DNA from: Minwuia sp.
GTDB taxonomy: Bacteria; Pseudomonadota; Alphaproteobacteria; Minwuiales; Minwuiaceae
DNA length: 49,853 nucleotides
Assembly: GCA_029213165.1 (NCBI GenBank)
Contig: JARGNO010000027.1
Location: 1,711-51,563, forward strand
Direction: 5' to 3'
Below are positions 40,826 to 49,853 of the stretch, in pieces; position 1 is the stretch's first letter, and every line of letters starts with the position of its first letter. The notes under the pieces were generated by a model, which saw nothing but the letters and a program-made list of their open reading frames with translations, was not told where the DNA came from and made no database searches. The position numbers and the translations under genes are program-made.

Positions 40826-42337
40826 TCAGTGCACATCGCGCGGATCGTGGATGCGGTCGTAGTCCTTGAAGGTCGTGTATTCCGGTTCGAAGAACAGCTC
40901 GATGGTACCGGTCGGGCCATGGCGCTGCTTGCTGATGATGACCTCGGTCTTGTTGTAGATGCGGCTCATCTTCTCCTGCCACTCCTCCATCGCCACCTGG
41001 TCGGTCTCGTCGGGCTTGTTCTTCTGCTCGTAGTAGGACTCGCGATAGATGAACATGACCACATCCGCGTCCTGTTCGATGGACCCCGATTCACGCAGGT
41101 CGGAAAGCTGGGGCCGCTTGTCGTCGCGCTGTTCGACGGCGCGCGACAACTGCGAAAGCGCCACCACCGGCACCGCCAGTTCCTTGGCCACGGCCTTCAG
41201 GCCCTGGGTGATCTCGGTGATTTCCTGCACCCGGTTCTCGGTGCGCTTGGCCCCGGAGGGGCGCATGAGCTGGATGTAGTCGATGATGATCAGGCCCAGC
41301 CCGTGCTGGCGCTTCAGCCGCCGGGCGCGGGACCGGAGCTGCGAGATCGAGATGGCTGGCGTGTCATCGATGTAGAACGGCAGGTCCACCAGTTGCTGCG
41401 TCGCCGGAACCACCGTGTTCAGATAGGTCTCCCGGTCGATGGTGCCCTTGCGCAGATCGTTGGAGCGGATGCGGGTCTGTTCGGAAACCACACGCGTGGC
41501 CAACTGTTCGCGCGACATTTCCAGGCTGAAGAAGCCGACCACCGCCCCCTCCGTATCCACCACATTGCCCGTGTCGTCGCGGATCTGCCGGTAGGCGCGG
41601 GCGGCATTCAGGCCGATGGTGACAGCCAGCGAGGTCTTGCCCATGCCCGGTCGGGCGGCCAGCACCAGCATGTCGGTGCGATGCAGGCCCCCCAGCCAGT
41701 TGTCCAGATCACGCAGACCGGTGGTGACGCCCACCAGTTGCCCGACCCGGCGATAGGCGGCTTCGATGCTTTCCAGGCTCTCGGTCACGGCCTGGCGGAA
41801 CGGGCGCAGGTCGTTCTGCGCCTCACCGGCCTCTGCCAGCGAATAGAGACTCGCCTCCGCCGCCTCGATCTGCTTCTCCGCCGTGTCGGACAGGTCGGCA
41901 CCGTGACTGCGCTCCGACATCTCGTCCGACAGCAGGATGATCTGACGCCTGAGATAGAGGTCATAGAGGATGCGGGCATATTCCTCGGCCCGGATCGCGT
42001 TCACCGCGCGGGCGCTCAGGTCCACCAGATAGCCCGCGCCGCCCAGTTCCCGGATTGCCGCGTCCTGTTCAAAGCGGGTCTTCAGGGTCACCGGATTGGC
42101 CAGTTCACCGCGATCGACCAGCGTCAGGATGGCGTCGTAGATGCGCCCGTGCAGCGGCTGGAAGAAATGCTCCGCACGGAGGAAATCCAGCAAGCGCGCC
42201 GCCGCATCATTGTTGTAGAGCAGGGCGCCCAGCAGTTGCTGCTCCGCCTCCAGATTATGCGGCAGTTCCCGGGGTGCGTCCTCCTGCACGGAGGGCTCGT
42301 CCCGGTCGATCAAGCGTGCGTCGATGATGTCAGCCAT
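40826..42337 (-). CDS. dnaB: Replicative DNA helicase
   Basis: Hexameric 5'-3' helicase of the replication fork, 503 residues. N-terminal domain (PHNLEAEQQLLGALL, about 27-130), linker, then the RecA-like motor. Walker A is in AARPGMGKTSLAVTIGLNAA, H1a is FFSLEMSREQLATRV, Walker B is LIIIDYIQLM, and DnaB-specific QLSRAVEQRDDKRPQLSDLR follows, with the arginine finger region QRHGPTGTIEL. No intein is present. Confidence 0.98.
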   Translation of the reverse strand: MADIIDARLIDRDEPSVQEDAPRELPHNLEAEQQLLGALLYNNDAAARLLDFLRAEHFFQPLHGRIYDAILTLVDRGELANPVTLKTRFEQDAAIRELGGAGYLVDLSARAVNAIRAEEYARILYDLYLRRQIILLSDEMSERSHGADLSDTAEKQIEAAEASLYSLAEAGEAQNDLRPFRQAVTESLESIEAAYRRVGQLVGVTTGLRDLDNWLGGLHRTDMLVLAARPGMGKTSLAVTIGLNAARAYRQIRDDTGNVVDTEGAVVGFFSLEMSREQLATRVVSEQTRIRSNDLRKGTIDRETYLNTVVPATQQLVDLPFYIDDTPAISISQLRSRARRLKRQHGLGLIIIDYIQLMRPSGAKRTENRVQEITEITQGLKAVAKELAVPVVALSQLSRAVEQRDDKRPQLSDLRESGSIEQDADVVMFIYRESYYEQKNKPDETDQVAMEEWQEKMSRIYNKTEVIISKQRHGPTGTIELFFEPEYTTFKDYDRIHDPRDVH

Positions 42338-42498
42338 GATCCGCAGAACCTATCATTCCGGTGCCCGGACCGCAGGCGTCGCACACGGTCCCCGCCCCAC
42401 TTTCCTGTGGATTCAATTATCCACAGGCAGTCGAGAAGCGGGGATAGCCTGAAAATCCGGCTGTTTCGTGGCGGGTTGGAGCCGCGTCGGCCTGTGAT

Positions 42499-42984
42499 CT
42501 ATTCATGCTCCAGGATGACAAATGGCGCCCGCATCCGCACACCCCAGAATTCGTAGATCACATAATAGCGCCGCCCGGTTTCCAGCAGGCCGCGGTTCAG
42601 CAGCAGGCTGTTGGTGGCATAGATCGTTTCCCCCGGAGCCAGCTTCAGCACGGATTCGCTCGGCTCGCAGTCGGTGTCGCCGCGGGTCGCGATCAGGTCA
42701 TTGTTGGGATAGACGATATGGTAATTGTGCACATCGCAGATGCTGGGGGCCTTGATCACCAGCGGGTCCGGTCCGGTGTTCGTCAGTTCGATGTTCACCG
42801 GAATGCGGGCTGCGGCACCGCCCTGCGGCAGGCGAACCCGGCGATCAACTGTGATGCGGCCTTCCAGGAACTCATCCGTTTCAGCGGTCTTCAGTTGCGC
42901 CTGCGCAGTTGTGGTGACGGAGAACATCGCCACGAAGGTGGACGCAAGCAGCGCAAGGCCGGTGACAAGTGCAGGTCGAAGCAT
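42499..42984 (-). CDS. Secreted protein of unknown function
   Basis: About 161 residues with a signal peptide (LRPALVTGLALLASTFVAMF..., cleavage near AQA). The mature domain looks beta-rich, with GRITVDRRVRLPQG, VNIELTNTGPDPLVIKAPSI and two Cys that could pair (SICDVHN, DTDCEPSE). The pattern ELTNTGPDPL resembles Ig-like or proteinase-inhibitor-like folds, but I do not assign a family. ATG 42984 gives the best signal peptide; a longer start at 43020 is possible. It sits between bpt and dnaB on the same strand. Confidence 0.75.
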   Translation of the reverse strand: MLRPALVTGLALLASTFVAMFSVTTTAQAQLKTAETDEFLEGRITVDRRVRLPQGGAAARIPVNIELTNTGPDPLVIKAPSICDVHNYHIVYPNNDLIATRGDTDCEPSESVLKLAPGETIYATNSLLLNRGLLETGRRYYVIYEFWGVRMRAPFVILEHE

Positions 42985-43059
42985 TCTCTCGGTACTCCAG
43001 GGAAACTGTCGCTGTCTCAAGTGTGGTGAACCCGTTGGAACACGACAACCCTGCAGCCG

Positions 43060-43833
43060 TCACGTTCCCTGATCTTCGCCGGTCTCCGCCATCAGATCCC
43101 GATCGTCGGCCATCGCAGGCGGCAGGTCCATCCAGCCATCCGGTGTCAGTTGTTCCAGCGGGCGGAAGGCCGACTTGTAGGCCATCTTGCGGCTGCCCGG
43201 AATCCAGTAGCCGAGATAGACGTTGGTCAGATCTTCCGACAGGGCATGCCAGACATGCCATTGCAGGACATAGACACCCAGGCTGCGCCGCTCGTCCTCC
43301 GTGTCGAAGAAGCTGTAGACGAGGGAGAAGCCGTCCTGCATCCGGTCGGTCAGACAGACCGCGTGCAGCTTCAGGTCCGCATCCCGGAACTCGACCAGGA
43401 AGGTATCGACGGGCGTATCCTCCACCATCGCGCGGTAATCGCCGAAGCGCATGTCGGCCATCCCGCCCTCCGCATGGCGGGTGGTGAGATACTGGCGGAA
43501 CAGCATGTAGTGCTCGCGGGTGGCCAGCGCCGGCACGATGCGGGCACTCAGATCCTGGTTGCGCCGCCAGTTGCGCCGCTGCGTGCGGTTCGGCTGGAAC
43601 CGGGCGACCGGCACACGTACCGGAATGCAGGCATTGCAGTTGTCGCAGGCCGGACGGTAGGCGAGATCCTGGCTGCGCCGGAAACCGGCAGCCGAAAGCG
43701 CGCTGTGCAACTGGTCCGGTTCCTCCCCCGACAACAGGGTCACGACCTTCCGCTCCATGCGACCGGCCAGGTACGGGCAGGGGGTTGGTGGCGTGGCAAA
43801 GAAATGCCGCAGCGGGATCTGAACGCGCTTCAT
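43060..43833 (-). CDS. bpt: Leucyl/aspartate-glutamate tRNA-protein transferase (N-end rule)
   Basis: Bpt adds Leu from Leu-tRNA to N-terminal Asp or Glu so that ClpS/ClpAP can degrade the protein. At 257 residues it has the family layout: CPYLAGRMERKVVTLLSG, then CDNCNACIPVRVPV with the Cys group, NRTQRRNWRRNQD, and the GNAT-like C-domain with YSFFDTEDERRSLGVYVLQW and YLGYWIPGSRKMAYKSAFRP. ATG 43833 is chosen; the open frame continues upstream without a plausible start. It is divergent from the guanidine operon. Confidence 0.93.
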   Translation of the reverse strand: MKRVQIPLRHFFATPPTPCPYLAGRMERKVVTLLSGEEPDQLHSALSAAGFRRSQDLAYRPACDNCNACIPVRVPVARFQPNRTQRRNWRRNQDLSARIVPALATREHYMLFRQYLTTRHAEGGMADMRFGDYRAMVEDTPVDTFLVEFRDADLKLHAVCLTDRMQDGFSLVYSFFDTEDERRSLGVYVLQWHVWHALSEDLTNVYLGYWIPGSRKMAYKSAFRPLEQLTPDGWMDLPPAMADDRDLMAETGEDQGT

Positions 43834-44024
43834 GCGCAAAAGCGTAATCCAGCATGACGCGGCTTGCAGCAAATTCTTGCAGCGGATTTTGGGCAATTTG
43901 TCGATATGCCCGAACAAGCGGCGAAAAATGCGCCATTGCCCAGTTTTCAGGCAATCTCCGGTCAGCCCGAATACCTCGTCCCGGCAAGCGGCTGATTCCA
44001 ATGGAGAAACCGGAATGCGCCTGC

Positions 44025-44039
44025 TGGCACACGGCTTGC
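44025..44039 (+). promoter_or_regulatory. Sigma-54 (RpoN) promoter motif upstream of guanidine operon
   Basis: TGGCAC, five bases, then TTGC: the -24/-12 elements of a sigma-54 promoter with exact spacing. The predicted transcript start is near 44051, five bases before the first paired base of the riboswitch. This suggests control by a nitrogen regulator such as NtrC. No NtrC site was recognised with confidence. Confidence 0.8.
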
Positions 44040-44050
44040 GCAGGTATCGC

Positions 44051-44158
44051 CAACAGGTGACTAGGGTTCCGGCAGGCCGCAAGGCAGGCGTCTGGTCCGA
44101 GAGTTGCCATCCTGCCGAGCACACGGCGGGACACACGGCGGGCCAAAATCCCGGGAGA
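44051..44158 (+). ncRNA. Guanidine-I riboswitch (ykkC-yxkD leader)
   Basis: The conserved blocks appear in order: CTAGGGTTCCG at 44061, CTGGTCCGAGAG at 44092-44103, ACACGGCGGG at 44133-44142, and AAAATCCCGGGAGA at 44145-44158. Pairing supports the fold: GGTGAC (44056-44061) with GTTGCC (44103-44108), a small hairpin GCC-GCAA-GGC with a GNRA loop (44076-44085), and TCCTGCCG with CGGCGGGA (44110-44131) around AGCACA. The ligand is free guanidinium. One consensus base differs (AAAAT for AAAAG before CCC). It lies about 90 nt before the binding-protein gene. Confidence 0.95.
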
Positions 44159-44177
44159 TCTTGCGCGGCGTTGAACG

Positions 44178-44250
44178 CCTGACGAGGTCTTTGTCCGACC
44201 TCCCAGGTCCGGTGGACAGCGTCAGGAACTGACGATCGAGGAGGGTTTGA
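44178..44250 (+). promoter_or_regulatory. Putative riboswitch expression platform and ribosome site
   Basis: CGTCAGG (44220-44226) can pair either upstream with CCTGACG (44178-44184), enclosing hairpins GAGGTC/GACCTC and GTCC/GGAC, or downstream with CTGACG (44229-44234) around GAA. The second hairpin ends a few bases before the ribosome site GAGGAGGG (44238-44245) and ATG 44250. No T-run is present, so control at translation is more likely than termination. Confidence 0.5.
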
Positions 44251-45314
44251 TGAAACGAATCGCTGCATTGATGACGGGACTGGCGCTGTTGGGCGCTGTC
44301 TCCCTTTCCCCGGCCGAGGCCGCGAAGAAGGACAGCTTTCGCGTGGCATGGTCGATCTATGTCGGCTGGATGCCCTGGGGCTACATGTCCGACTCCGGCA
44401 TCATGAAGAAATGGGCCGACAAGTACGGCATCGAAGTCGAGATCGTGCAGATCAACGACTATATCGAGTCCATCAACCAGTACACGGCAGGCGCCTTCGA
44501 CGGCGTCTCCGCCACCAACATGGACACCCTGTCGATCCCGTCGGGCGGCGGTGTCGACACGACCGCGCTGATCGTCGGTGACTTTTCCAACGGCAATGAT
44601 GCGGTCCTGGTGAAGGGCGATGGCGGCTTCGCGGCGCTGGCGGGCAAGCCGGTCAACCTGGTGGAGCTTTCGGTGTCGCATTACCTTCTGGCCCGCGGGC
44701 TGGAAAGCGCGGGGATGCGGGAGGCCGACATCAGTGTCGTGAACACCTCGGACGCCGACATGGTTGCCGCCTTCGCCACACCGGACGTGCAGGCGGCGGT
44801 GACCTGGAACCCGCTGGTCTCCACAATCATGGAGATGCCGGGGGTCACGAAGATCTACGACAGTGCCGACATCCCGGGCGAGATCATCGACCTGATGGTG
44901 GTGAATACCGAAACGCTGGCCGACAACCCGGCCTTCGGCAAGGCGCTGGTTGGGGCCTGGTACGAGGCCATGCAGGTCATGTCCTCCGACACGCCTGCCG
45001 GGATCGCGGCGCGCGAAGGCATGGCCTCCGCATCAGGCACGGACCTGGCCGGCTATGACGCCCAGCTCGCCACCACCCAGATGTTCTACGATCCCGCCGC
45101 CGCCGTCGCCTTCACACAGGACGCGAAGCTGATCCAGACCATGGACTTCGTGCGCAAGTTCCTGTTCGAGCATGGGATCCTGGGTGAGGGCGCGCAGTCG
45201 GTGGATGACATCGGCATCGCCTTTCCCGGTGGCAAGACCCTGGGCGACAAGGGCAATGTCACCTTCCGCTTCGACCCGGCCTACATGCAGATGGCTGCCG
45301 ACGGCGCCCTCTGA
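44250..45314 (+). CDS. Guanidine ABC transporter, periplasmic binding protein (predicted)
   Basis: A 354-residue SsuA/TauA/NMT1-like binding protein. Signal peptide KRIAALMTGLALLGAVSLSP with cleavage likely after AEA. The mature part opens with RVAWSIYVGWMPWGYMSDSG and has aromatic residues that could hold a planar cation, and later VNLVELSVSHYLLARGLESA. Family membership alone would suggest nitrate, sulfonate or similar; guanidine is inferred from the guanidine-I riboswitch just upstream and from the guanidine-hydrolase-like enzyme in the same operon. ATG 44250 follows GAGGAGGG; a TTG precedes it by one codon. Confidence 0.88.
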   Translation: MKRIAALMTGLALLGAVSLSPAEAAKKDSFRVAWSIYVGWMPWGYMSDSGIMKKWADKYGIEVEIVQINDYIESINQYTAGAFDGVSATNMDTLSIPSGGGVDTTALIVGDFSNGNDAVLVKGDGGFAALAGKPVNLVELSVSHYLLARGLESAGMREADISVVNTSDADMVAAFATPDVQAAVTWNPLVSTIMEMPGVTKIYDSADIPGEIIDLMVVNTETLADNPAFGKALVGAWYEAMQVMSSDTPAGIAAREGMASASGTDLAGYDAQLATTQMFYDPAAAVAFTQDAKLIQTMDFVRKFLFEHGILGEGAQSVDDIGIAFPGGKTLGDKGNVTFRFDPAYMQMAADGAL

Positions 45315-45405
45315 CACCACCGCGATGATGCTGACCGTTGCGCCGGGCCTCACCTGAGCCCGGCGTGACAGTCGGCGGCGGTCACCCTCCAGGCGGAAAG
45401 AACAG

Positions 45406-46227
45406 ATGCGCTGGATCAACAGACGCCCCGGACGCCCCCTGCTGTTCGTGCTCGCGGCCCTGCCGTTCGTGCTGACCCTGCTGGCCTATGTCATCGGTTC
45501 CGACATCCGCCGCACGGCCAATCCGAACGACAAGCTGCTGCCCGCGCTGGAGAAGGTGATCGACCGCGCCCAGGCGCTGGCGACGGAGCCGGATCGCCGC
45601 TCCGGCGAGATCCTGTTGTGGATGGACACGGCGGCAAGCCTGCAGCGTCTGGCCATCGGTGTGGCCTGCGCCGCTGCCGTCGGGGTGTTCTTCGGGCTGC
45701 TGATCGGCCTGTTCCCGCTGGCCCGGTCTACCCTGGCATCCTATGTCGCCGTGCTGTCACTGATCCCGCCACTGGCGCTGCTGCCGGTCCTGTTCCTGGT
45801 CTTCGGCCTGGGGGAAACGGCAAAGATCGTGCTGATCGTGGTCGGCATCACCCCGTTCCTGATCCGCGACCTGGGCCAGCGGGTGCTGGAGATTCCGCTG
45901 GAACAACTGGTGAAGGCGCAGACGCTGGGCGCATCGTCGTGGCAGATCGTGACCCGTGTGGCGCTGCCGCAACTCGCGCCGCGCCTGATCCAGGCCGTAC
46001 GCCTGTCGCTCGGTCCCGCCTGGCTGTTCCTGATCGCGTCGGAGGCCATCGCCGCACAGGCCGGTCTCGGCTACCGCATCTTCCTGGTCCGTCGTTATCT
46101 GGCCATGGACATCATCATTCCCTACGTCCTGTGGATCACGGTCCTGGCCTTCCTGATCGACTGGTCGCTGCGCCTGACGTCCCGGCGCGCCTTCCGCTGG
46201 GCACATGTGCAGGGGGAAAGCCTGTGA
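45406..46227 (+). CDS. Guanidine ABC transporter, permease (predicted)
   Basis: A 273-residue inner-membrane permease of the SsuC/TauC type with about six helices. The ATPase-coupling EAA loop is EQLVKAQTLGASSWQIVTRVALPQLAPRLI. The first helix is followed by an unusually long periplasmic stretch (SDIRRTANPNDKLLPALEKV). ATG 45406 follows GGCGGAAAG. The stop overlaps the ATPase GTG as GTGA. Substrate is inferred from riboswitch and operon. Confidence 0.92.
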   Translation: MRWINRRPGRPLLFVLAALPFVLTLLAYVIGSDIRRTANPNDKLLPALEKVIDRAQALATEPDRRSGEILLWMDTAASLQRLAIGVACAAAVGVFFGLLIGLFPLARSTLASYVAVLSLIPPLALLPVLFLVFGLGETAKIVLIVVGITPFLIRDLGQRVLEIPLEQLVKAQTLGASSWQIVTRVALPQLAPRLIQAVRLSLGPAWLFLIASEAIAAQAGLGYRIFLVRRYLAMDIIIPYVLWITVLAFLIDWSLRLTSRRAFRWAHVQGESL

Positions 46228-47060
46228 GTGCCGTGACCGTCCGAGATGTCTTCAAGAGCTATGGCGATGCACCGGTGCTGGAGCGGGTGAACCTGGAAGT
46301 GGCGGACGGCGACTTCTGCGCCATCGTCGGCGCCTCCGGCTGCGGCAAGTCCACGTTCCTGCGCATGTTGCTGGCGCAGGAGCTGCCGACCCGTGGCCGC
46401 ATCCACATCGGCGATGCGCGGCCCGCGCGCGAACCCGGCCCGGACCGGGGCGTGGTCTTCCAGCGCTATTCCGTCTTTCCGCACCTCAGCGTGCGCGACA
46501 ACCTGATCCTGCCGGTATCGTTCCGCGATGCACCGATCCTGGGACGGCTGTTCGGATCCGCGCTGCGCAAGGCGGAGGCGGAGGCCAATGCGACGCTGGA
46601 GCGGGTTGGCCTGGCCCATGTCGCCGATGCCTGGCCGAGCCAGCTTTCCGGCGGCATGCAGCAGCGGCTGGCGATTGCACAGGCGCTGGTGCGCCGCCCC
46701 AGCGTGCTGCTGCTGGACGAACCCTTCGGCGCACTGGACCCGGGCACGCGGCTGTCCATGCACGACTTCCTGCTCGACCTCTGGCGCGACAGCGGCATGA
46801 CCGTCTTCATGGTCAGCCATGATCTGTCGGAGGCTTTCAAGCTCGGCACCCGCGTCGTCGTCTTCGACAAGCCGCGCTGGGACCCCCAGGATCCCAGCCG
46901 CTATGGCGCGACCATCACCCATGATTTCAGACTTGGCGACAAGAAGGGGGAGACAACCAATGACCCGACCCATGAATCCGACCGAGAGACGGCAGCAGCG
47001 GCAATCCGTGGTGCCGATGCGGCAAGGCCCGGCGGAAACCCGGCGGCACCACCATCCTGA
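46224..47060 (+). CDS. Guanidine ABC transporter, ATP-binding protein (predicted)
   Basis: A 278-residue ATPase of the SsuB/TauB group. Walker A VGASGCGKSTFLRM, Q-loop VVFQRYSVFPHLSV, signature LSGGMQQRLAIAQA, Walker B VLLLDEPFGALDP, H-loop MVSHDLSEA. GTG 46224 overlaps the permease stop and follows AGGGGGAAAG. The last 33 codons overlap the next gene by 101 bp in another frame; the tail after GDKKGE is low-complexity and may be dispensable. Confidence 0.93.
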   Translation: MSAVTVRDVFKSYGDAPVLERVNLEVADGDFCAIVGASGCGKSTFLRMLLAQELPTRGRIHIGDARPAREPGPDRGVVFQRYSVFPHLSVRDNLILPVSFRDAPILGRLFGSALRKAEAEANATLERVGLAHVADAWPSQLSGGMQQRLAIAQALVRRPSVLLLDEPFGALDPGTRLSMHDFLLDLWRDSGMTVFMVSHDLSEAFKLGTRVVVFDKPRWDPQDPSRYGATITHDFRLGDKKGETTNDPTHESDRETAAAAIRGADAARPGGNPAAPPS

Positions 47061-48243
47061 CCTGACGAAGCTGCTTGGCTGGAAGGCGGCACGGGCGGAG
47101 GCGGAACTGCCCTCCGGCGAATGGGACAAGGAACGCCAATGGGCGCTGCGCATGGGGCTGACCGCCGCCGACAGCGTGCAGGACCGGTCCATCCCCACCT
47201 TCGCGCGGGGCGAACTGCCCCATTACGCCGGCATCAACACCTTCCTGAAGGCACCCTATGCGGAAGATGTGACGGACGTCGGCCATTTCGACGCCACCGT
47301 GCTGGGCGCGCCCTTCGATGGCGGCACCACCTATCGCCCCGGCACCCGCTTCGGACCGCAGGGCATCCGCAAGATCTCGGCGCTCTATACCCCCTACAAC
47401 TACGAACTGGGCGTCGATCTGCGCGAACAGATGACCCTGTGTGACGCGGGCGACATCTTCACGATTCCGGCGAATATCGAGAAGACCTTCGACCAGATCT
47501 CGCGGGCCTGCTCGCATGTCTTCTCCAGTGGTTCCATGCCCATCATCCTGGGCGGCGACCACTCCATCGGTTTCCCCACCGTGCGCGGCATTGCCGAATG
47601 CACGTCGAAGACCATCGGCATCATCCATTTCGACCGTCACGCCGATATCCAGGAAAAGGACCTGGACGAGCGGATGCATACCACGCCCTGGTTCCATGCC
47701 ACCAACCTGCCCAATGTCCCGGCGAAGAACCTGGTGCAGATCGGCATCGGTGGGTGGCAGGTACCGCGCGAGGCGGTGGCCGTGGCGCGGGAGCGCAATA
47801 CCAACATCATCACCATGTCCGACGTCGAACAGCTCGGCCTCGACCGGGTTGCCGACATGGCGCTGGAGATGGCCTGGGACGGGGCCGACATGGTCTATCT
47901 CTCGTTCGACATCGACTGCGTCGACTGCGGCTTTGTCCCCGGCACCGGCTGGCCCGAACCCGGCGGCTTCCTGCCGCGCGAGGTGCTGCATCTGGTCTCC
48001 CGCGTCGCGGCGGAGGGGCTCTGCGGCATGGAGATCGTGGAGGTCTCGCCGCCCTATGACACCTCCGACATCACCGCGCTGTTCGGAACCCGGGTGATCG
48101 TCGACGCGCTGGGGTCGATGGTCGCGGCCGGAAAGCTGGGGGCGCACAAGGGCCATATCGACAAGCCCGTGACAGTGCCGATGGGCGACTATGACGCCGC
48201 CCGCGACGGTCATCGCTGGTCGAACAAGCCGAAGGGAGCCTGA
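46960..48243 (+). CDS. gdmH: Guanidine hydrolase (GdmH-like, Ni-dependent ureohydrolase)
   Basis: A 427-residue ureohydrolase-fold enzyme. Metal ligands are complete: GGDHS (His201), D225-R-H227-A-D229 and D317-I-D319. Agmatinases normally have GTGTPEPGG; here Trp331 replaces Thr (GTGWPEPGGF), and Thr123-Thr124 lie in FDGGTTYRPG. A Trp and a Thr at such positions mark guanidine hydrolases, which convert guanidine to ammonia and urea and need nickel. An N-terminal extension of about 100 residues is also typical of that group. ATG 46960 follows GGGGGAG. It lies between an ABC importer and a His-rich protein, under a guanidine-I riboswitch. Agmatinase or guanidinobutyrase is less likely. Confidence 0.88.
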   Translation: MTRPMNPTERRQQRQSVVPMRQGPAETRRHHHPDLTKLLGWKAARAEAELPSGEWDKERQWALRMGLTAADSVQDRSIPTFARGELPHYAGINTFLKAPYAEDVTDVGHFDATVLGAPFDGGTTYRPGTRFGPQGIRKISALYTPYNYELGVDLREQMTLCDAGDIFTIPANIEKTFDQISRACSHVFSSGSMPIILGGDHSIGFPTVRGIAECTSKTIGIIHFDRHADIQEKDLDERMHTTPWFHATNLPNVPAKNLVQIGIGGWQVPREAVAVARERNTNIITMSDVEQLGLDRVADMALEMAWDGADMVYLSFDIDCVDCGFVPGTGWPEPGGFLPREVLHLVSRVAAEGLCGMEIVEVSPPYDTSDITALFGTRVIVDALGSMVAAGKLGAHKGHIDKPVTVPMGDYDAARDGHRWSNKPKGA

Positions 48244-48246
48244 GCC

Positions 48247-48702
48247 ATGCCGCATGACCATCATTCACACGCGCCTGACCATGATCATGGTCATCCCCAC
48301 GGTTCCGGTCACAACCACGCCGCCGACGCGCCGCTGCACCTGCATTCCCACATGGAGGAAGAGGACGCGGCCACCGAGATCGGGATGCTCTGCGATCAGT
48401 TCATCGAGGGCTTTCGCGACGCCACCGACAAGGCCACCTTCCTGCGTCTGGCGGGCGTGGCCTTCGAGGTGCCGGGCAATGCAGGCGGGCCGTCACTGAA
48501 ACTGGTGGACGTGAAGGTGGAGACCGCCTGGCAGGTCGGCGCGGCCTCCCCCGCCTTCGGCAGCGCGGAGCTGTCCTACCTGCCGTTCCCCGGCGCAATG
48601 ATCCGCGAACGGACCAACTGCGCCCTGGTCTATGTCTCGAAGCAGGAACGCCGCGATCTCGACCTGCGGGAGTTCATGCAGCAGAGGCGGGCGACGATGT
48701 AA
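48247..48702 (+). CDS. His-rich small protein, candidate metal (Ni) delivery factor
   Basis: A 151-residue cytoplasmic protein in two parts. Residues 1-36 are a metal-binding-like tail with 13 His (MPHDHHSHAPDHDHGHPHGS, then HNH and HLHSH). Residues about 38-151 form a compact domain I do not recognise: ATEIGMLCDQFIEGFRDATD, SLKLVDVKVETAWQVGAASP, and RTNCALVYVSKQERRDLDLR. No HypA zinc finger or HypB GTPase motif is present. It starts 3 nt after the guanidine hydrolase stop, so a role in supplying nickel to that enzyme is a reasonable inference. Confidence 0.8.
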   Translation: MPHDHHSHAPDHDHGHPHGSGHNHAADAPLHLHSHMEEEDAATEIGMLCDQFIEGFRDATDKATFLRLAGVAFEVPGNAGGPSLKLVDVKVETAWQVGAASPAFGSAELSYLPFPGAMIRERTNCALVYVSKQERRDLDLREFMQQRRATM

Positions 48703-48739
48703 ACCGCCGCCCGGTGAACGTCGCTCAGGGAAGCACCGC

Positions 48740-49759
48740 TCAGGCGGCGTCTTCCAGACCGGCTTCCCATTCACCGCGGGCGGCGAGCCAGTTCATGCGG
48801 GCGCGGTGCAGGTAGGCGGCCTGGGCGGCGGCGACATTGCCGGTCTGGCCGACCCATGCCTTCAGGGCCGACTGCTGCAGGGCGCGTCCATAGGAGAAGC
48901 TGAGCGCCCAGGGCAGCGGTCCCATGCGGTTCATCGCATCCAGATGCGCCGTTGCCTCGACCTCGGTCTGGCCGCCGGACAGGAAGACGATGCCCGGAAC
49001 GGCGGAGGGCACGCAACGCTTCAGGGTGGCGACAGTCGCGGCGGCCACGGCCTGCACATCGGCGCGATTGGCGGCGTCCTGACCGGAAATCACCATGTTC
49101 GGCTTCAGCAGGATGCCTTCCAGCTCCACGCGCTGGGCGTAGAGTTCGCTGAAGACGGCATCCAGCGTGTCCTCGGTGACCTTCTGGCAGCGGGCCAGGT
49201 CGTGGTCGCCGTCCATCAGCACCTCGGGCTCCACGATGGGCACGATGCCGGCTTCCTGCGACAGCTTCGCGTAGCGGGCCAGCGCATGGGCATTGGTGTC
49301 GATGCAATAGGCAGACGGGATCTCGTTGGTGATCTTGATGACCGCGCGCCACTTGGCGAAATCGGCACCAAGCTGGCGGTATTCGGCGAAGCGTTCGCGC
49401 AGGCCGTCCAGCCCCTCGGTCACGGTCTCGCCCTCGGCACCGGCCAGCGGCTTGGCGCCCATGTCGACCTTGATGCCCGGCGCCACGTTCTCGGACCGGA
49501 TCAGGTCGACCAGCGTGGTGCCATCGGCTGCCTTCTGGCGCAGGGTCTCGTCGTACAGGATGACGCCGCCGACATGCTTGCCGTGGCCCGCGGTGCGGAA
49601 CATCAGCTCCCGATAGTCGCGGCGGTTGTCTTCCGTATTCTCGACCCCGATGGAATCGAAACGCTTCTTGATGGTGCCGGTCGATTCGTCGGCGGCAAGC
49701 ACACCCTTGCCATCCTCGACAATCCCGCGGGCAATGGCATTCAGGTCACGGTCAGACAT
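48740..49759 (-). CDS. Class I fructose-bisphosphate aldolase
   Basis: A 339-residue Schiff-base aldolase of the eukaryotic-like class I type. Visible: GKGVLAADESTGTIKKRF near the N-terminus, ILYDETLRQ, KWRAVIKITNEIPS, IVPIVEPEVLMDGDH and the Schiff-base Lys in EGILLKPNMVISGQ, then FLSGGQTEVEATAHLDAMNR and SFSYGRALQQSALKAW. It cleaves fructose 1,6-bisphosphate in glycolysis and runs the reverse step in gluconeogenesis. ATG 49759 follows GGAGG; a GTG-started extension is possible. Convergent with the guanidine operon (37-nt gap). Confidence 0.96.
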   Translation of the reverse strand: MSDRDLNAIARGIVEDGKGVLAADESTGTIKKRFDSIGVENTEDNRRDYRELMFRTAGHGKHVGGVILYDETLRQKAADGTTLVDLIRSENVAPGIKVDMGAKPLAGAEGETVTEGLDGLRERFAEYRQLGADFAKWRAVIKITNEIPSAYCIDTNAHALARYAKLSQEAGIVPIVEPEVLMDGDHDLARCQKVTEDTLDAVFSELYAQRVELEGILLKPNMVISGQDAANRADVQAVAAATVATLKRCVPSAVPGIVFLSGGQTEVEATAHLDAMNRMGPLPWALSFSYGRALQQSALKAWVGQTGNVAAAQAAYLHRARMNWLAARGEWEAGLEDAA

Positions 49760-49826
49760 CGGTTCCTCCACACTCACTCACATACGTCCCGGCGGCGACG
49801 CCAAGCGCGCCCGCCGCCAATCTGGT

Positions 49827-49853
49827 TCAGTCGTCCTGGTTCATCAGCACGGC
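49827..49853 (-). CDS. Possible 3' end of another gene (cut by window edge)
   Basis: The last 27 nt read AVLMNQDD and a TGA on the minus strand. This may be the C-terminus of a gene upstream of the aldolase. It is too short to identify, and chance is possible. Confidence 0.25.
   Translation of the reverse strand, partial: AVLMNQDD

Follow-up and report, generated by a model that had tools for sequence, protein, structure and literature searches.

A probable guanidine-assimilation operon of Minwuia ending in a histidine-rich candidate nickel-delivery protein

Background

How does a nickel-dependent guanidine hydrolase obtain its metal when its operon carries none of the known nickel loaders? 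The question is raised by a locus of the alphaproteobacterium Minwuia sp. (contig JARGNO010000027.1), lying in a stretch of 49,853 nucleotides that we call the window and whose numbering is used throughout. Here a guanidine-I riboswitch is followed by a three-part ATP-binding cassette (ABC) importer, a predicted guanidine hydrolase, GdmH, and a small histidine-rich protein that we call HISR (Table 1). A riboswitch, an ABC importer and a nickel guanidinase are already known to share one operon in Synechocystis. What the Minwuia locus adds is HISR and its pairing with GdmH; the rest of the operon is of a known kind.

We consider it likely that the operon is a self-contained guanidine-assimilation module in which HISR serves as the dedicated nickel-delivery protein of GdmH. 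In such a module, guanidinium would bind the riboswitch and turn the operon on, the importer would take up guanidine, Ni-dependent GdmH would cleave it into urea and ammonia, and the genome's own urease would free the remaining nitrogen. HISR would bring nickel to GdmH, a task that falls to a HypA/HypB-type pair in Synechocystis; the metal would be held by the flexible, His-rich tail of HISR, and the folded core would dock on the enzyme. A nickel role for HISR is suggested because its partner is orthologous to nickel enzymes, because HypA is absent, and because the tail is rich in histidine and contains fixed motifs. From these elements we infer metal binding by HISR, its docking on GdmH and the transfer of nickel. 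Guanidine is the predicted substrate in this organism.

Association of HISR with GdmH

We compared 80 loci, the best-scoring of 567, which lean to close relatives and whose titles all appear alphaproteobacterial. In 79 of them gdmH is followed by HISR, and the last one (L050) leaves its contig before the gdmH stop codon. The complete order of substrate-binding protein (SBP), permease, ATPase, GdmH and HISR is found in 78 loci, the other two (L050 and L053) being cut by contig ends. Genes located 3' of HISR are not conserved: within 4 kb in the 72 loci with enough flanking sequence, 187 open reading frames (ORFs) fall into 167 clusters, the largest of which is present in 6 loci. These ORFs were crudely called, and spurious ones inflate the number of clusters; nothing approaches the 79/80 of HISR. 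In locus L032, the ATPase gene and gdmH stand about 2.2 kb apart, with two unrelated long ORFs in between, and gdmH and HISR are still adjacent.

Locus L014 (L014:1233-7000) was considered as a second separation of importer and gdmH with HISR retained, and was dropped, its importer being distant and Rfam giving no riboswitch above threshold. Its SBP shows 44 percent identity, versus 62 or more in the other loci having one, and about 3 kb of ORFs, presumably dehydrogenase-like and deacetylase-like, precede gdmH-HISR; the importer is possibly a different one.

The association also holds in two genome samples, 289 of the class and 398 of the phylum. GdmH was detected in 7 of the 289 (cut-off E up to 1e-100 in this sample), and HISR in the same seven plus, as a broken remnant, in genome G125; in the phylum sample, seven of the 398 have GdmH and the same seven have HISR. 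Fisher tests of co-occurrence, uncorrected for relatedness, give 2.6e-13 and 3.4e-15. As the Minwuia genome and G107 belong to both sets, there are 12 distinct genomes with both genes; each of them has HISR on the strand of gdmH, downstream of it and within about 350 bases. The 12-genome and 80-locus sets overlap by at least one (L013/G197). Among 11 plasmid records with a GdmH relative, HISR is present in all seven alphaproteobacterial ones and in none of the four actinobacterial ones, these four being our sample of GdmH outside the Proteobacteria. Two annotated plasmid relatives of HISR are labelled 'hypothetical protein'.

Pairwise distances of HISR and GdmH are correlated across 76 loci (r 0.70, against at most 0.31 in 500 permutations), which shows only co-inheritance and is no evidence of contact.

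The G125 remnant (L010:1489-1764, L103:7079-7360) follows an ORF that we take to be an FtsX-like permease. GdmH was not found in this genome, which suggests that the operon was lost in that lineage.

Sequence and predicted structure of HISR

HISR comprises an N-terminal His-rich tail (residues 1-37) and a folded core (38-151). The AlphaFold model has a predicted local distance difference test (pLDDT) score of 83.5 overall and 91.6 for the core alone, which is confidently modelled as two helices, five strands and a C-terminal helix; the tail is of low confidence. Residue conservation was counted in 75 aligned HISRs, gaps excluded. The tail is variable and contains three near-fixed motifs: MPHD, which opens the protein (H3 and D4, 73/75), HN (H22, 73/73) and HLHSH (H31, 70/73; H33, 72/74; H35, 73/74). 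The median number of histidines before the core is 16, as in L074, which has 16 in 44 residues.

With the start codons chosen here, MPHD or MAHD occurs among residues 1-14 in 75 of 78 HISRs, and in 72 of these the motif opens the protein; the remaining three show MPHT, MAPHD and, from an alternative GTG start, M-H-N. Divergent members start with M-H-D or M-H-R. The HISRs of L007 and L039 are exceptions, in which the start chosen, or the likely one, gives no histidine at that place. The initiator methionine is cleaved before proline or alanine and retained before histidine; if this rule applies, most mature HISRs would begin with X-His. One member (L024:3885-4493) is His-rich at both termini.

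Database searches placed HISR in no known family. For the window protein, Pfam gave no hit with E up to 1; when seven members were searched with the limit raised to E 10, a single one of them matched a family, Zip. Neither the window protein nor these seven match the HypA family (PF01155) in Pfam, and no HISR match to UreE_N or UreE_C is seen, though the same library detects this genome's UreE. No NCBIfam family was assigned either; one of the seven members weakly matches a nickel/cobalt efflux transporter (E 0.018), which probably reflects the His run. PHROGs and PADLOC returned nothing usable. A resemblance of the core to a zinc-operon protein family was considered and was not borne out: with E values up to 10 allowed, Pfam and NCBIfam searches of the seven members gave ZrgA in one member only, at E 2.1.

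Comparison with the PDB yielded no reliable relative. A PDB sequence search gave nothing significant (best E 0.41), and Foldseek returned no PDB match at E up to 0.001 for the whole model or the core. The best PDB Z scores from VIA-align are 3.4 (root-mean-square deviation 5.0, 70 aligned residues) and 3.1 (3.7, 69 aligned). COMMD-like and tudor chains, which recur at Z about 2 to 3, were rejected as fold relatives since such scores are within the chance range. The lack of a significant match to this model does not prove a new fold.

The guanidine hydrolase

GdmH belongs to the Pfam Arginase family (PF00491, E 6.8e-79). A PDB sequence search matched 74 sequences, among which 7esr/7oi1 (E 7.9e-168) and 9fek (E 3.6e-162) rank far ahead of the rest; next come a proclavaminate amidinohydrolase (6.3e-50) and a guanidinobutyrase (4.8e-48), and the best agmatinase reaches 4.9e-37. 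The protein also scores below the NCBIfam agmatinase cut-off (166.1 versus 174.3 bits). The cited passages of PMC11410670 identify 7OI1 as the Synechocystis guanidinase; 9fek, titled 'putative agmatinase 2' in the PDB, we take as the Nitrospira inopinata guanidinase, since its residues agree with the positions given there. By sequence, GdmH is thus orthologous to two guanidinases of solved structure.

Active-site positions published in the same passages were transferred by hand through the GdmH-9fek alignment. T105, H222 and W313 of N. inopinata correspond to T124, H240 and W331 of GdmH, and the six metal ligands H182, D207, H209, D211, D299 and D301 to H201, D225, H227, D229, D317 and D319, all of them matched. 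Together with E361, all ten published positions are conserved in GdmH and in 80/80 relatives. Guanidine specificity is linked, in the part of PMC11410670 cited here, to the Thr and Trp that match T124 and W331. Orthology predicts guanidine hydrolysis by GdmH. The Minwuia genome encodes three further, distant ureohydrolases (29 to 36 percent identity) and therefore has other candidates for agmatinase-like work. A GdmH relative on an Embleya plasmid (L117:8001-9071) has Thr at the key Trp position; it is perhaps not a guanidinase and might serve as a natural outgroup for specificity.

The N-terminal arm of GdmH carries the motif RRHHHPD (H31, H32, P33, D34). HHPD is present in 80/80 loci and, at the aligned columns, in none of the four actinobacterial relatives, though one has HHHPE nearby; three of the 12 genomes with both proteins have HHPN. 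No PDB chain was matched by a 60-residue query of this arm, whose shortness makes the test a weak one. We regard the HHPD arm as a candidate site for HISR docking or nickel hand-over.

Nickel delivery and its alternatives

HypA is a known nickel loader. It is absent from the Minwuia genome and from seven of the other 11 genomes with GdmH and HISR, that is, from 8/12. A tblastn search of the 80 loci with two HypA proteins and, as a stand-in for HypB, this genome's UreG found nothing. The need for a loader is documented for related enzymes, as metformin hydrolases require HypA and HypB according to the cited passages of PMC11399263.

Several points weigh against nickel delivery by HISR. HypA is present in four of the 12 genomes, and the search of the loci used UreG in place of a HypB query. 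UreE and UreG of the same genome could also be the nickel source for GdmH. The N. inopinata guanidinase has no known chaperone in the passages of PMC11410670, so that a helper may not be universal. The HISR core has no conserved Cys or His in the 75-sequence alignment. As to the tail, the HISR of G126 (L011) keeps MPHD and otherwise has no histidine before the core, and that of G148 (L009) has four; a long His tail is therefore not always needed. The 80 loci, drawn from the top of 567, lean to close relatives, co-occurrence alone cannot separate delivery from storage, and nickel delivery is read here from genes and models. Finally, urease alpha is found in 12/12 genomes with GdmH and HISR, a count that lacks a baseline from genomes without GdmH.

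Four other readings were weighed. HISR may store or buffer nickel, whether for protection of the cell or to maintain a pool, with no insertion into GdmH; the His-rich protein Hpn is a model for this. The variable, very His-rich tail of most members, with its median of 16 histidines before the core, would suit this role. The His-rich tail of SlyD is likewise given as a possible nickel source in the cited passage of a review (PMC7055735). A store would be expected also in genomes lacking GdmH, whereas in both samples HISR occurs only with GdmH, bar one broken remnant, and its folded core is conserved too; we therefore hold storage to be unlikely. Somewhat less likely still is a non-metal partner, that is, a stabilising or regulatory GdmH subunit in which the His tail is secondary. 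The high-confidence core without conserved Cys or His and the two members with short or His-poor tails fit such a subunit, while the near-invariance of MPHD, HN and HLHSH and the orthology of GdmH to nickel enzymes speak against it.

A third reading concerns the enzyme: this GdmH clade might favour guanidino acids or substituted guanidines, namely methyl- or dimethylguanidine, since metformin and dimethylguanidine are substrates of related ureohydrolases in the cited part of PMC11399263. It appears improbable in view of the conservation in 80/80 of T124 and W331, to which guanidine specificity is linked (PMC11410670, as above), and of a riboswitch that belongs to the guanidine class. That HISR is a passenger gene merely lying beside gdmH has operon linkage and nothing further in its favour, and we reject it given its retention in 79/80 loci with non-conserved flanks, the linkage kept in L032 with the importer apart, and the occurrence of both genes in the same genomes of two samples.

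Dedicated nickel delivery to GdmH thus remains our preferred role for HISR. We may go further and hypothesize that HISR is the first of a new type of nickel-insertion factor, one that consists of a lone small protein free of nucleoside triphosphatase activity, with a processed N-terminal X-His-Asp site fed by the His tail and with one client, GdmH, perhaps contacted through its HHPD arm. This extension is tentative, and we would sooner bet against it than for it.

Operon architecture and regulation

Table 1. Features of the guanidine operon (window coordinates)
Feature	Position	Strand	Evidence and remarks
Guanidine-I (ykkC) riboswitch aptamer	44050..44159	+	Rfam RF00442, 80.9 bits, full-length match
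Leader, aptamer to start codon	44160..44249	+	Shine-Dalgarno-like GAGGAGGG directly 5' of ATG; sequence, folding
SBP of ABC importer, NMT1-like, TIGR03427	44250..45314	+	Pfam, NCBIfam
ABC permease, BPD_transp_1, TauC/SsuC-like	45406..46227	+	Pfam, NCBIfam
ABC ATPase, NtrD/SsuB-like, ABC_tran, GTG start	46224..47060	+	ORF call, Pfam, NCBIfam
gdmH, predicted ureohydrolase-family guanidine hydrolase, 427 residues	46960..48243	+	PDB sequence search, Pfam, residue mapping
HISR, 151 residues, His-rich tail and folded core, candidate nickel-delivery protein	48247..48702	+	Sequence, co-occurrence, model

The initial annotation had proposed, from the sequence of the window, a guanidine-I riboswitch, a three-part ABC importer, a ureohydrolase with W331 in GTGWPEPGG and a final His-rich protein, all tightly spaced on one strand. 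The covariance model recovers the riboswitch over its full length, well above the gathering score of 63 bits (E 6.3e-13). The importer is borne out by an SBP above the TIGR03427 cut-off and by the permease and ATPase domains, the hydrolase by its Arginase match, guanidinase orthology and ten of ten active-site positions, and HISR, to which that annotation gave no role, is indeed the last gene. All genes lie close together on the forward strand, with the reservation that 91 bases separate the SBP and permease genes. The 3' end of the ATPase gene overlaps gdmH by 101 bases (46960-47060); an equally long ATPase end is seen in a close relative (L006), and the overlap is 20 bases in an annotated relative (L118). 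Three bases lie between the gdmH stop codon and the HISR start.

No run of more than three T was found 3' of the aptamer in the leader sequence, and RNA folding leaves the Shine-Dalgarno sequence mostly paired both with and without the aptamer. A two-part sequence pattern places a riboswitch just upstream of the SBP gene in 71 of the 80 loci, not each of them confirmed by Rfam; an Rfam search of eight of the nine remaining loci (L053 left out) added four, for a total of 75/80. Three of the loci without a match (L015, L024 and L053) are truncated, their contigs starting at or within the operon, and in L014 and L066 no riboswitch was found by the pattern or at the Rfam threshold.

The SBP scores 535.3 bits against the TIGR03427 model (cut-off 333.9), whose name says urea. 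We take TIGR03427 to be a putative urea importer family tied to urea (now guanidine) carboxylase operons. The substrate of the Minwuia importer would be guanidine.

Fate of urea

The initial annotation saw no urease in the window and left the fate of urea open. No urease is indeed present among the ORFs of 42000-49853, the part of the window that was annotated. The answer lies on another contig, C47, of the Minwuia genome (4.12 Mb, 99.86 percent complete), which carries a ureDABCEFG cluster (ureD, ureA, ureB, ureC, ureE, ureF and ureG). A sister genome, G197, has two strong urease alpha matches (C1:788166 and 2849189), compared with one in the Minwuia genome.

Comparison with known systems

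A large group of guanidinases has no known loaders in its operon, yet one specific protein accompanies it in 79/80 loci. HISR and gdmH would make nickel loading of a ureohydrolase testable with two genes, a function can be proposed for a family labelled 'hypothetical protein', and the presence of HISR may be used to recognize this route of guanidine use in alphaproteobacterial genomes. No His-rich guanidinase partner is described in the literature searched (titles, abstract openings and passages); GdmH papers and supplements beyond these may mention HISR.

Guanidine-carboxylase operons with a TIGR03427-type importer, an association that we presume, resemble the Minwuia operon in that its SBP exceeds the TIGR03427 cut-off; they differ in that the route here is that of a hydrolase.

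The likeness to HypA is one of working principle only. HypA binds nickel via its N-terminal amine and His2 of M-H-E, as stated in the cited part of PMC7055735, and HISR has a near-invariant His after its expected mature first residue (P-H-D, A-H-D, M-H-D). By analogy, we hypothesize convergent chemistry rather than homology. Unlike HypA, HISR has no HypA-family Pfam match and no conserved Cys in its core.

The guanidinase locus of Nitrospira inopinata shares with the Minwuia operon a guanidine-I riboswitch and a guanidinase with no nickel chaperone gene of a known kind nearby, as far as the passages of PMC11410670 go; it has an APC permease where Minwuia has an ABC importer. The same passages of this 2024 comammox study call the nickel route to its guanidinase unclear and report no chaperone.

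The closest parallel is the sll1077 operon of Synechocystis, which likewise combines a guanidine-I riboswitch, an ABC importer (sll1080-1082) and an orthologous nickel guanidinase. There, two accessory hypA/hypB-type loaders stand alongside the guanidinase, according to the cited portions of PMC12186494 and PMC8390497, whereas the Minwuia operon has no hypA/hypB-type gene and ends in His-rich HISR. The N-terminal HHPD arm of Minwuia GdmH would be a second difference, as suggested by the weak 60-residue PDB query.

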